From the NCBI GenBank assembly GCA_016744775.1, contig JADGDS010000003.1:1-64000 (forward strand): DNA of 64,000 nt, read 5' to 3'. This DNA comes from Candidatus Marithrix sp. (GTDB lineage Bacteria > Pseudomonadota > Gammaproteobacteria > Beggiatoales > Beggiatoaceae). Positions 6,089-53,712 of the stretch are shown here, in pieces; position 1 is the first letter of the stretch, and every line of letters starts with the position of its first letter. Made by a program: the position numbers and the translations under genes. The notes beneath the pieces were generated by a model. It saw only the letters and a program-made list of their open reading frames with translations. It had not been told where the DNA came from and did not search any database.

Positions 6089-6541
6089 AACTCGTTTGGT
6101 ATTATCTACGCGGCTACTAAATACATTTACTCGTTCGCCGGGTTGAAATGGTACATCTGCTTGTTGTACAACTACTATTTTTTGACCACTGTCAAGTTTC
6201 ACTACTATTTTATAGGCTTTTTTGTCAGTGACTAGTTTTTCGGCTTTATCTCCTAGAAAACCACCTATAACAGCACCAGCTACTGAGGCAATGGCACTAC
6301 CTTTGCCGCCACCAATTCCACTAGCAGCTATTCCACCAATGGCAGCACCAGCAATTGAGCCAACTGGTGTATCTTCTTTTCTAATTTTTGCTTCTTGTAC
6401 GCTTTCTACAACGCCTTCTTCTACATCTTCAGCTTGTAAGGCTTGATCGGATGTATAAATTTTAGTCGAACGATCTGGAGCGCAAGCTCCTAATAGTAAT
6501 GTTGTTGTTATTAATAACGTAATAATTGTAAAGTTTTTCAT
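6077..6541 (-). CDS. Glycine-zipper outer-membrane lipoprotein (17 kDa antigen/SlyB-like)
   Basis: 154 residues. A lipoprotein signal with lipobox LLLGAC puts the acylated cysteine at position 20. A glycine-zipper region follows (GSIAGAAIGGIAASGIGG and VAGAVIGGFLGD), typical of the Rickettsia 17 kDa surface antigen/SlyB family, then a C-terminal beta domain (VVKLDSGQKIVVVQQ) with FQPGERVNV. It is probably anchored in the outer membrane and affects envelope integrity; the exact role is unknown. It is convergent with rnpA and overlaps its 3' end by 12 bases. Confidence 0.85.
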   Translation of the reverse strand: MKNFTIITLLITTTLLLGACAPDRSTKIYTSDQALQAEDVEEGVVESVQEAKIRKEDTPVGSIAGAAIGGIAASGIGGGKGSAIASVAGAVIGGFLGDKAEKLVTDKKAYKIVVKLDSGQKIVVVQQADVPFQPGERVNVFSSRVDNTKRVSKL

Positions 6542-6595
6542 GGTATAATCTCTAATTTGAAATAATATTATTATTATAGCATAAAGTTTTATGAT

Positions 6596-7162
6596 ATGTC
6601 GATTGAAACTGAACTGAAATTATATATTGATCCTAAATATATTAAGCAATTTTTAAACCATTCTTTATTAAAAGATAAAAATTATATTACTCAAGATTTA
6701 TATAATATTTATTATGATACTTCTGAACATGATTTGTTACGGAGTGGTGTGGGTTTACGTGTACGGCGTGTTGATGATAAATGGATACAGACTATGAAAA
6801 CCGCCAATCAAGCAGTAGATGGTTTACATCAGCGGCAAGAATGGGAAAAGGAAATTAATAGTGAGGTTCCAGAATATGATAAATTTCCAGTTTTACCATT
6901 GTTTACTACTAATTTTCAACGTATGAAGTGGGATTTGGTGTTTGATGATGGTAGTGAAATTGAATTGGTGCTTGATCAAGGTGAGGTTAAGGCTAATAAT
7001 GCAACTGTTCCTTTGAGTGAAATTGAATTGGAATTGAAGGCTGGTTCAGTAGAGAAGTTATTTGAAGTGGCTGAGATTTTAAAGGAACAGGTGCCGCTGT
7101 CGATTAAAAATGATACTAAAGCGGCGATTGGATATGCTTTACTGAATGTGAACGAAATATGA
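6596..7162 (+). CDS. CYTH-domain phosphatase (inorganic triphosphatase-like)
   Basis: 188 residues, a single CYTH domain. The signature ExExK is near the N-terminus (IETELKL), and the tunnel-lining charged residues follow (LRVRRVDDKWIQTMK, QEWEKEI, SEIELELK). CYTH enzymes hydrolyse triphosphates such as inorganic tripolyphosphate using a divalent metal. E. coli YgiF has an extra CHAD domain; here the protein ends after CYTH. A divergent promoter region of about 50 bp separates it from the lipoprotein gene. The substrate cannot be read from the sequence. Confidence 0.85.
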   Translation: MSIETELKLYIDPKYIKQFLNHSLLKDKNYITQDLYNIYYDTSEHDLLRSGVGLRVRRVDDKWIQTMKTANQAVDGLHQRQEWEKEINSEVPEYDKFPVLPLFTTNFQRMKWDLVFDDGSEIELVLDQGEVKANNATVPLSEIELELKAGSVEKLFEVAEILKEQVPLSIKNDTKAAIGYALLNVNEI

Positions 7163-7196
7163 TGTAACTCATGTTACGCACCATTTTGCCATTACC

Positions 7197-7232
7197 AAGC
7201 ATCGCCTTGGAATTTATTCCTAGGTGGTGTTT
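7197..7232. terminator. Imperfect hairpin between convergent genes
   Basis: AAGCATCGCCTTGGAA and TTCCTAGGTGGTGTTT form an imperfect 16-bp stem between the CYTH gene and the helicase gene, whose 3' ends face each other. Just before it (7164-7180) is a TAACTCATGTTACGCA motif that recurs at 58054-58070. Confidence 0.45.
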
Positions 7233-7255
7233 GAGCATGTAAAAATGTTTTTGTT

Positions 7256-8695
7256 CTACTTTGAAGGCTGTCGCCGCTGTGAAATTCTTTCATCAGCGGT
7301 ATTTCTCACTACGACTTCGTATAAAATCGCTTCGGTATTACCTTGTTTACGCAATATTCGCCCTAGGCGTTGTATATATTCTCTATCACTAGCACTGCCT
7401 CCTAGTATTATTGCTATTTTTGCTTTGGGTATGTCAATGCCTTCATTTAATACTTTGGTTGTTACAATTGCTTTGTAATTGCCATTGCGGTAATGGTCTA
7501 ATATTGCTTTACGTTCTGCGGCTTTGGTTTGGTGTGTTATTACTGGTATTAGGTAGTGTCGTGATATGCGGTAGGCAAAGCTGTTGTGTGCTGTGAAAAT
7601 TATAATGTGTTGTTTTTTATGTTCACTTAATAAGTGTTGCAGTATATCTAATTTTGCTTGTGCTTGAAATATTAGGTTTTTCCATTTTAATTCTGCGATT
7701 TTGGCACGACGCGCTTCTGCTTGATAGGCACTGCGACGTGTTAGTTCATGCCACCATGAGGAACCATGAGTTTCTCGTAAACGATGTTCTTGCACATAGC
7801 CTACATATGTTGTATATGCAGTTTCATATTCGATTTTTTCTTGTTCATATAATTCTACTAAAATACGTTGTGTACGGTATTGTGCTAGTTGTTCGCCTGT
7901 TAAATCGTCAATTTTTTTAAAATATACTACTGTTCCTACTAGTTCATTTAGTAAGGCTACTGGATCTGATGGATTTGCAAGTAGTTGTAATTGTTGGTTG
8001 GTATTGGTTTTTGGTTTGGGAGTGAATGGGCGAAAATTATTTTTTTGATTTGGATAGGTTGCGGTTAAGCCAAGGCGGTATGGAGCGGTACATATTAGGG
8101 CTATTTCATGCCATGAGGGTGCGGCTAAATGATGGATTTCGTCAAAAATCAATAATTTGAATTTGTCACCTAATGTTTCAGCATGTGCCCACGCGCTTGG
8201 ATATGTGGTGACGGTTATTGGTTGTAATTGTTTTTCTAAGCCATACCATGTGCCGATTGTAATTCCAAAAGCATTTTCTAAACGCGCATACCATTGATGT
8301 AATAAGTCAATAGTTGGTACTACTATTAAGGTGCTAACCTGTGTTTCTAATATGGCTTTTAGAGCTAAAACTGTTTTACCAGCTCCAGTTGGTAATACAA
8401 CGCTGCCCCAACATTCAGCGGCTATCCAAGCATCAAGTGCCTCAGTTTGATAGGCATGAGGTACCCAATTTTCTTGTAAATTTAAGGATAGAGATTCCCA
8501 GCGCGGGATTTGATTCCAAATATTATGTTGATAAAGCCAAGGGCGTATCAGGCGATAATCAACCGCGCGACAACGCCATTTATTTTGCAACCAGTGAAAT
8601 TGTTTAGGTGTTTCAAAATCTTGCCCTAAATTTTCTATAACAATTGTACCGCCATGAAAACGAGCGCGAGGGTTTTCTGAGGCGGTTACAGACAT
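7256..8695 (-). CDS. XPB/Ssl2-like superfamily 2 DNA helicase
   Basis: 479 residues. Motif I LPTGAGKT (residues 101-108), DEIHH (motif II), LGLTATY (motif III) and QRLGRILRKQG (motif VI) define an SF2 DEAD/DEAH helicase. The overall layout is XPB/Ssl2-like (COG1061): a short N-terminal domain of about 75 residues precedes the first RecA domain, and a mid-section rich in Y/E/R links the two. Prokaryotic XPB-like proteins unwind DNA in repair, sometimes with a Bax1-type nuclease, which is not nearby. Only five bases separate it from the DUF1566 gene upstream, so they may be co-transcribed. Confidence 0.85.
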   Translation of the reverse strand: MSVTASENPRARFHGGTIVIENLGQDFETPKQFHWLQNKWRCRAVDYRLIRPWLYQHNIWNQIPRWESLSLNLQENWVPHAYQTEALDAWIAAECWGSVVLPTGAGKTVLALKAILETQVSTLIVVPTIDLLHQWYARLENAFGITIGTWYGLEKQLQPITVTTYPSAWAHAETLGDKFKLLIFDEIHHLAAPSWHEIALICTAPYRLGLTATYPNQKNNFRPFTPKPKTNTNQQLQLLANPSDPVALLNELVGTVVYFKKIDDLTGEQLAQYRTQRILVELYEQEKIEYETAYTTYVGYVQEHRLRETHGSSWWHELTRRSAYQAEARRAKIAELKWKNLIFQAQAKLDILQHLLSEHKKQHIIIFTAHNSFAYRISRHYLIPVITHQTKAAERKAILDHYRNGNYKAIVTTKVLNEGIDIPKAKIAIILGGSASDREYIQRLGRILRKQGNTEAILYEVVVRNTADERISQRRQPSK

Positions 8696-51691: not shown

Positions 51692-52894
51692 TTAGTTAAT
51701 TGCTAAAATAAACTCCATTATTAATCCTGACTTCTCTTCACTATTATATAATCGACAAGTTCCACCATTGCCCCAAATTATACTAGCAATCATTGCTAAG
51801 CCTAATCCCATACCCTTTACTTCTCCGGTGAAATATTTTTCACTTTGGTAATAGGGTGTCCATACTTGGGTTAATTCTTCATTTGGAAGTCCATTGCCGT
51901 TATCTGTAATAGATAATAACATTTTATTATTATCTATTGCATGAATTGCTATTTCTATCGCAGGATTTTCTTCAGGATGAAATTTTTTTGAATTAGTAAA
52001 ACATTCGCGTATAATTAATTCTAATTGTTTATAAGTTAAAGCGATAGATTTTTTTTCTAAAGTTTTGTCAATTTGTATAGATACAGTTTGTATCTCTAAA
52101 TCTCTTCTAATTTTTGTTAATAATGTTGATAAATCTGATAAATTAAATTTTTCATGGTATTTAATTGTTTTTGATGAGTCCATAAAACGCAATATTTCTA
52201 ATATTTGATTGCGTAAGCGTTTTGCACTATCTTGTGCAATTTTTAGTAAACCCTTTGCTTCTGTTGAAGATAAATCTTCTTTTTGCTCTAAAATTTGAAG
52301 ACTAACCAAGCCATGTAAAGGCGCACGTAATTTATGTGAAATCATAGATTGAAATGACCACACTTGTTGCTGCAAATTAATATGCTCACTAACATCGCGT
52401 AAGTGTACTAATTGATCAGTAATATTATCAGAAGGTTGCTCTAAAATATTAACCTGTAACCATAAAGCAGCACTTTGTTTAGATTCAGGGCGTACTAAAT
52501 ACCGAGGTAATGTTCCTATATTTGGAATAGGCCAACTATCCCATGCAACCGTTGGTTGACATTTTAAATTTTGTTTTTTTATATGATCAAAAAATCCTTC
52601 AGGAGTAAAATCATCTTTTAATCCTAAATAAAAACGGGCAGATGAATTAGCGTATTGTATAACATTACCTTCACTCAGTAATAAATAGCCATCATTAGAT
52701 TGTTCCACAGCCCATTCAAAACGAACCCGTTCTGTTAATAAACGACGATAATTCTTTGTATCTAATACCACAAAATCTGATGTGGCATCTTCATCACTAA
52801 CAAATTCATAATTATTTTCAGCAAGTAATTTTTTTAATTTTGATCGTCCTTGCTTTTGATCATCGACAATCAATATACAGTTTTTTTGAGGCAT
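51692..52894 (-). CDS. Sensor histidine kinase with shortened receiver and PAS domain
   Basis: 400 residues. Start ILIVDDQKQGRSKLKKLL is the beginning of a receiver domain (D11, D12), but after about 45 residues (FVVLDTKNY) the sequence enters a PAS domain (FEWAVEQSNDGYLLL), so the rest of the receiver is missing. Then HisKA with MISHKLRAPLHGL and a HATPase (ITDNGNGLPNE, GMGLGLAMI). It is cytoplasmic. Whether D45 can take a phosphate is unclear. No response regulator lies beside it. Confidence 0.85.
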   Translation of the reverse strand: MPQKNCILIVDDQKQGRSKLKKLLAENNYEFVSDEDATSDFVVLDTKNYRRLLTERVRFEWAVEQSNDGYLLLSEGNVIQYANSSARFYLGLKDDFTPEGFFDHIKKQNLKCQPTVAWDSWPIPNIGTLPRYLVRPESKQSAALWLQVNILEQPSDNITDQLVHLRDVSEHINLQQQVWSFQSMISHKLRAPLHGLVSLQILEQKEDLSSTEAKGLLKIAQDSAKRLRNQILEILRFMDSSKTIKYHEKFNLSDLSTLLTKIRRDLEIQTVSIQIDKTLEKKSIALTYKQLELIIRECFTNSKKFHPEENPAIEIAIHAIDNNKMLLSITDNGNGLPNEELTQVWTPYYQSEKYFTGEVKGMGLGLAMIASIIWGNGGTCRLYNSEEKSGLIMEFILAIN

Positions 52895-53051
52895 AGCCGA
52901 TCCTAAAACAGCATGTTTTTATTAAGCATATTGTAAAAAAGGTGCAATGATTGTGACAAGTGTTCCTTTATTTTACACTCTTGATATATTTTTTTTGTTC
53001 ATTATTATAAATAAGGATTTTATAACAATTCTATTAAGAGATATTAAAAAT

Positions 53052-53396
53052 ATGGCATACGAATTTAATGGTCAAACAATTGAAGCTAATCCTAATGGTT
53101 ATTTAGATAATATAGATGATTGGAATGAAGATGTGGCAAAAGTTATTGCAGAAGCCGAAGGTGTTAGCGAATTAACTGAACGCCATTTCAGTGTTATTAA
53201 TTATTTACGTGATGAATATATTAATAATGCTGGTAATCAGCCTAATATGAGAAATATTGTTAAAGCCATGAAAAAAGCTCTTAACGATAGTAAATTAGAT
53301 AGTAAATCTCTTTACGAGCTATTTCCGAAAAGTCCTGATAAGCAAGGTAGTAAAATAGCCGGTTTACCAGAAAGTAAACGTAAAGGCGGATATTAA
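53052..53396 (+). CDS. DsrC/TusE-family protein without cysteine
   Basis: 114 residues from the ATG at 53052 (MAYEFNGQTIEANPNGYLDN); an upstream ATG at 52947 would add 35 unrelated residues. The fold is clear: DWNEDVAKVIAEAEG, LTERHFSVINYLRDEY, then FPKSPDKQGSKIAGLP. DsrC carries sulfur on two C-terminal cysteines (about 100 and 111); here those places are S100 and K111, and the protein has no cysteine at all. It cannot act as a normal sulfur carrier. A regulatory role, as proposed for some DsrC-like (RspA) proteins, is possible. Confidence 0.88.
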   Translation: MAYEFNGQTIEANPNGYLDNIDDWNEDVAKVIAEAEGVSELTERHFSVINYLRDEYINNAGNQPNMRNIVKAMKKALNDSKLDSKSLYELFPKSPDKQGSKIAGLPESKRKGGY

Positions 53397-53400
53397 AAGC

Positions 53401-53433
53401 AAAGCTGACAGGTTTTTAAAACCTGTCAGCTTT
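53401..53433. repeat. CCTGTCAGGT-family palindrome, copy 6
   Basis: AAAGCTGACAGGTTTT and AAAACCTGTCAGCTTT around one T. It is a sub-type with GC in place of CC at the outer edge on both arms, so both sides changed together. It lies after the DsrC-like gene. Confidence 0.9.
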
Positions 53434-53445
53434 AATTAATATATT

Positions 53446-53712
53446 ATGCAAATAAAAGACAATATTAAATCCAGCAATGTCTGGATGCGCGGTTTTTTTA
53501 TATTTTTATATGCTATGATTGCTTATGTAACTATTTTTTTGACTTTTTTTGTGGTAATGTTTCAATTTGGTAGCCTATTATTCACAGGTAAATTAAATGA
53601 ACGTTTATTGCCTTTTGGTCAAAGTCTTAGCATTTTAATTCATCAAATCTTTAATTTTTTAACCTTTAATAGCGATGAAAAACCCTTCCCACTTGGCAAT
53701 TGGCCAAAGTAA
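53446..53712 (+). CDS. DUF4389 membrane protein
   Basis: 88 residues. Two hydrophobic segments (about 15-45 and 60-72) with the DUF4389 ends: MRGFFIFLYAMIAYV, FTGKLNERLLPFGQ and LTFNSDEKPFPLGNWP. Function is unknown; it lies three bases before the GTG of dnaE. Confidence 0.8.
   Translation: MQIKDNIKSSNVWMRGFFIFLYAMIAYVTIFLTFFVVMFQFGSLLFTGKLNERLLPFGQSLSILIHQIFNFLTFNSDEKPFPLGNWPK

Follow-up and report, generated by a model that had tools for sequence, protein, structure and literature searches.

Microbial sulfur oxidation has DsrC as its redox hub, and to our knowledge the extra DsrC-like copies of sulfur oxidisers have been left unexplained since the first genomes. A gene of Candidatus Marithrix, one of the large sulfur bacteria, raises the question of what a protein of the DsrC family does when it has no cysteine. 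The gene lies in the window, i.e. the whole stretch of 64,000 nucleotides of contig JADGDS010000003.1 that was analysed.

The open reading frame was listed with a start at 52947 (149 aa); the orthologues begin at the ATG at 53052. From there, positions 53052-53393 are translated into a protein of 114 aa (MAYEFNGQTIEANP...KSPDKQGSKIAGLPESKRKGGY) with zero cysteines. The protein scored 118.7 bits against the Pfam model of DsrC, PF04358 (cut-off 24.9), 105.2 bits against NCBIfam TIGR03342 (cut-off 53.5) and 89.9 bits against the TusE equivalog PRK11508, which is below the cut-off of 191. The closest solved structures were those of A. vinosum DsrC and of DsrC from a sulfate reducer. Translation and alignment with A. 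vinosum DsrC and with the two-cysteine DsrC of the same genome bore out the original prediction that both sulfur-carrying positions, Cys100 and Cys111, are replaced, by S100 and K111 (codon 53382-53384), and that no other cysteine exists (Table 1). As there is no cysteine, the protein as translated is unable to carry sulfur as a cysteine persulfide, and sulfur carriage as in DsrC is impossible. The protein thus lacks the Cys100 and Cys111 of the sulfur-carrying DsrC sensu stricto, and by ending K111-G-G-Y also the penultimate cysteine of TusE. It shares with DsrC sensu stricto the occurrence together with DsrAB (dsrB in 67 of the 69 genomes carrying its clade, see below), and with 0 Cys it agrees with the RspA type, which is DsrC-like with the conserved cysteines gone.

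Table 1. Positions of the gene, its diagnostic codons, its neighbours and the scattered module genes (window coordinates unless a locus or contig is given)
Feature	Location	Strand	Basis or remark
Cysteine-free DsrC paralogue, KGGY clade, 114 aa + stop	53052..53396	+	family profiles, orthologues, purifying selection, monophyly, predicted DsrC fold
S100 codon, position of DsrC Cys100 (CysA)	53349..53351	+	alignment; column of 95 orthologues
Codons of invariant C-terminal tail R110-K111-G112-G113-Y114; K111 at position of DsrC Cys111 (CysB)	53379..53393	+	identical in 95/95 distinct orthologues
DUF4389 membrane protein gene (PF14333), downstream	53446..53712	+	
Histidine kinase gene, divergent upstream	51692..52894	-	
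TauD-like gene, same genome	L247 (contig C1)		still divergent from dsrA
Cas6-like gene + 64-aa gene, same genome	L248 5503-6180 = C9:230502-231179 (Cas6-like)		
C10 gene, same genome	L249 (contig C4)		

The original prediction had also stated that the rest of the fold is kept, and this was supported by structure prediction. An AlphaFold2 model based on a 65-sequence alignment reached a pLDDT of 92.2, and with Foldseek the predicted fold gave TM values of 0.8-0.9 to solved DsrC chains; the comparison with DsrAB-bound D. vulgaris DsrC gave TM 0.81/0.89 at an rmsd of 1.4 A. According to this model the protein has the DsrC fold, and KIAGLP, the start of the C-terminal arm, is retained. The last ten residues alone were poorly determined, and the tail is predicted to be flexible (pLDDT 56).

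When 57 genomes were searched with the Pfam model, a model that makes no selection for the tail, 33 orthologues were obtained, and 33 of 33 ended in RKGGY. Together with 80 loci from a named genome collection these formed a set of 113 sequences, 95 of them distinct. RKGGY was identical in 95 of the 95 distinct orthologues, the last residues always being (R/K)RKGGY, where the patterns used to scan the genome collection included part of the tail and excluded the terminal Y. More divergent members still keep KGGY, and about 478 relatives are present in the genome collection. No cysteine was present in 105 of the 113 orthologues, and the column of S100 in the 95 orthologues contained G (56), S (30), A (5) and T (4), never C. 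QPN (63-65), R67, K71 and K97 were also invariant; R67 and K71 are common to the clade and DsrC, whereas QPN is absent from DsrC. N59, QPN 63-65 and K85 were near-invariant and clade-specific. In the tree, the KGGY sequences formed one side of a branch with an SH-aLRT value of 98, even when the tail and the CysA region had been removed, and on this topology they are one ancient orthologous clade. The orthologue of Candidatus Marithrix Canyon 246 showed 90% identity with a dN of 0.043, a dS of 0.377 and an omega of about 0.11. A frameshift near the 3' end that hides the cysteines, or a pseudogene, was ruled out by this omega and by the RKGGY end common to the 33 of 33 family-level orthologues and to the 95 distinct sequences as well.

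Four genes of the DsrC family were found in this genome, in line with the expectation that a sulfur oxidiser often has several copies. They encode a two-cysteine DsrC in the dsr operon (contig C1), a one-cysteine protein (C11), a cysteine-free protein ending in KGEH (C9) and the protein of the window (C3). The copy on C9 (L036 5088-5435) belongs to a second DsrC clade, cysteine-poor or cysteine-free with the tail TKGEH, which was also seen in L038, L054 and L111. Long open reading frames (291-371 aa) with a C-terminal DsrC domain were observed in L107 (2490-3575), L116 (3285-4397) and L120 (2920-3792); their N-terminal parts had no Pfam match, and they are possibly fusions or misread starts.

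The distribution of the clade was determined in 232 gammaproteobacterial genomes that were at least 95% complete. With profile A5, which was partly built from the same genomes it was run on, the clade was detected in 69 genomes, dsrB in 76 and both in 67 (Fisher p 1.4e-45, uncorrected for phylogeny). The earlier profile A1 alone had detected the clade in 57 of the 232 genomes, 55 of them with dsrB (p 4e-33). At its threshold (E 1e-44) profile A1 missed divergent members; these were exposed by their adjacency to a Cas6-like gene, and the broader profile was then rebuilt. The carriers span 55 genera. Both exceptions lacking dsrB look like assembly edges: in G090 a dsrB fragment lies at a contig end, and in G136 the contig stops inside the TauD gene of the KGGY operon, where dsrA would come next. 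Among the near relatives dsr was present in 32 of the 33 carriers, and at five loci without adjacent dsr, Rhodobacteraceae included, the genomes have dsrB or matches consistent with dsrA/dsrB fragments. The KGGY gene was located within 8 kb of dsrB and divergent from it at 42 of 58 places; in the Beggiatoa family it lies far from dsr. No KGGY copy was detectable in 9 of the 76 dsrB genomes, and the protein is therefore not essential for the pathway everywhere.

In the majority of the 80 loci, the gene belonged to an operon divergent from dsrAB, with the order TauD-like dioxygenase, a 64-aa protein, C10, Cas6-like protein and KGGY protein, the KGGY gene being at or near the end. C10 is a protein of about 235 aa with a predicted helical fold, for which no Pfam match and no significant PDB match were obtained. 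Of the 70 places of the KGGY gene in the 232-genome set, 56 were immediately downstream of the Cas6-like gene. The Cas6-like gene (PF09559, TIGR02807) was present in 76 of the 232 genomes and shared 74 of them with dsrB, itself present in 76 (p 1e-55, uncorrected for phylogeny). This makes a Cas6-family protein a near-perfect marker of the oxidative Dsr pathway in Gammaproteobacteria. The protein keeps the histidine of LPLDH and the C-terminal glycine-rich loop GCGLF, and its best PDB match was a Cas6 (8fcj, E 1.8e-10). It belongs to the same sequence family as Cas6/Cmx6 and has the glycine-rich loop and a possible catalytic histidine, but it tracks dsrAB, and among the recurrent neighbours no other cas or CRISPR genes were noted. 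In the genome studied here all five module genes are kept and are spread over four contigs (Table 1). A shared function of the module is supported by their retention after scattering.

We lean towards the reading that the KGGY protein is a non-sulfur-carrying DsrC paralogue that probably docks on a partner within oxidative (reverse) Dsr and serves this pathway as a dedicated accessory. The predicted DsrC fold and the beginning of the arm are retained, but in place of the two redox cysteines the arm ends in an inert, basic and unvarying RKGGY. The fold may be used for docking on a partner of the Dsr pathway, of which DsrAB is the best candidate because the arm of DsrC enters DsrAB. Once docked, the protein might regulate or protect the partner or help it to mature, and it would work with the proteins of the ancestral operon, i.e. 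the Cas6-like protein, the helical C10, the 64-aa protein and the TauD-like oxygenase. As read from the sequences, the loss of the cysteines, the clade, its tail, the selection, the co-occurrence with dsr, the operon and the predicted fold argue for this accessory role. Against it stand the 9 of 76 dsrB genomes without a copy, the distance from dsr in the Beggiatoa family and the predicted flexibility of the tail. The non-carrier role of the original prediction is thus kept insofar as an accessory fits the near-exclusive co-occurrence with dsrAB.

An RNA-directed module is an alternative that we consider possible but doubtful. The Cas6-like protein would bind or cut dsr or tRNA transcripts, the cysteine-free DsrC would be a protein subunit, and dsr would be regulated at the RNA level. 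This is favoured by the position of the KGGY gene behind the Cas6-like gene, by the presence of the latter in nearly all dsrB genomes, by its retained histidine and loop, its Cas6 match and the lack of other cas genes among the recurrent neighbours. The tail of the KGGY protein is basic, and its relative TusE works in tRNA 2-thiolation. However, neither the TauD-like neighbour nor C10 has a clear connection with RNA, and the KGGY and Cas6-like genes are unlinked in this genome. It is the Cas6-like neighbour alone that suggests an involvement of RNA. Tentatively, a repurposed Cas6, a cysteine-free DsrC, a helical scaffold and a TauD-like oxygenase could together form a ribonucleoprotein-like accessory system that controls or matures the Dsr machinery. 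It is speculation that the diglycine of the tail, after removal of the terminal tyrosine, might act as a non-cysteine chemical handle like that of ThiS/MoaD-type carriers; no activating enzyme for such a handle was recognised among the recurrent neighbours.

It is rather unlikely that the protein is a competitive decoy of DsrC, whose arm would enter the siroheme channel of DsrAB and block or gate the turnover of DsrC. The fold and the arm start are as in DsrC, the protein cannot react, and its link to dsrAB is strict. However, the clade-specific residues N59, QPN 63-65 and K85 suggest a surface altered for another partner. In A. vinosum the interaction of DsrC with DsrEFH strictly requires Cys111 of DsrC (PMC3397948), so that a decoy binding to DsrEFH is unlikely, and this part of the regulator or decoy role first proposed is not upheld.

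A conserved palindrome was found in the spacer between dsrA and the operon. In the DISCRIMINATING test, 35 of 41 loci had the palindrome TATCCCNNNNGGGATA with no more than one mismatch, against a shuffled expectation of 0.15. It is located about 80-270 bp upstream of dsrA, in spacers of L185-L245 and L252-L285 that are outside the window. As the pattern had been derived from the same 41 loci, it was rechecked in genomes sharing no sampled 25-mer there, and with at most two mismatches it was recovered in 10 of 10 in one genome set and in 7 of 10 in another. The palindrome is a candidate operator of some regulator of oxidative dsr. That this regulator is the KGGY protein, as a DNA-binding transcription regulator of dsr, appears improbable. 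The divergent position of the operon is typical of regulators, the palindrome between dsrA and the operon is strong, and binding of A. vinosum DsrC to DNA upstream of dsr has been reported (cited in PMC5944118). But the palindrome was present with 0-1 mismatches in four genomes in which the KGGY gene was not found (L252, L253, L257, L261), and it was not found near dsrA in ten Beggiatoa-family genomes carrying the gene, nor upstream of the gene in the window; moreover, the gene comes last or nearly last in its operon. With palindrome and gene uncoupled in this way, a role of the KGGY protein as regulator of this site is unlikely. As far as this palindrome is concerned, the DNA binding that the original prediction had put up for testing is thus argued against. 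An ordinary degenerating duplicate of DsrC, as might be concluded from the loss of both functional cysteines, is already refuted by the omega of about 0.11, the invariant tail, the about 478 relatives and the strict dsr association read from these sequences.

The KGGY protein shares with DsrC (A. vinosum, 1yx3; D. vulgaris, 2v4j chain C) the family PF04358, the predicted fold, the AGLP arm start and the occurrence in dsrAB organisms. It differs from these proteins by lacking CysA and CysB, being two residues longer, ending in RKGGY and having a clade-specific loop NN-G-NQPN-R, and its gene is in a separate divergent operon, whereas that of DsrC is in dsrABEFHC. TusE belongs to the same family but retains the penultimate cysteine, while the KGGY protein has no cysteine and tracks dsrAB. 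Cysteine-lacking DsrC homologues as such are already known. Venceslau et al. reportedly labelled them 'RspA' in 2014. They were remarked in the genome of the Solemya velum symbiont (PMC4287430), and A. vinosum has DsrC paralogues that are unassigned (PMC3368242). These are likewise DsrC-like without the two C-terminal cysteines; the group described here is a single orthologous clade whose tail is invariant, whose operon is conserved and whose link to oxidative dsr is near-exclusive, and it may be part of the RspA group. We found no description of the clade, tail or operon in the literature on DsrC together with RspA, TusE, Cas6, helix-turn-helix or paralogues, in a search mostly confined to papers outside subscription. 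One extra DsrC copy thus gains an identity, with a conserved clade, a diagnostic tail, a tie to oxidative dsr across 55 genera and defined operon partners, and its role is now testable in culturable sulfur oxidisers.

A homologous DUF4389 gene follows the orthologue only in L039 and L074, so this linkage is local. In several genomes of the Beggiatoa family (L039, L042, L050, L083, L085), homologous kinases with a receiver domain lie upstream of the orthologue in divergent orientation. Kinase and DUF4389 protein were rejected as functional partners, as their synteny is local and restricted to part of the family. An Rfam search around the gene gave no match. Just 3' of the gene, at 53405-53429, lies the palindrome CTGACAGGTTTTTAAAACCTGTCAG, one of 133 near-identical copies dispersed in the genome; to judge from these copies, it is a repeat or terminator element and not specific to the KGGY gene. 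Elsewhere in the genome, dsrA (contig C1, L247) is interrupted by about 1 kb (6404-7420) containing two group I intron matches below the gathering threshold and an ORF of 246 aa. A group I intron is known from dsrA of Thiomargarita nelsonii (PMC4853749), and in seven relatives dsrA was broken at the same model position.
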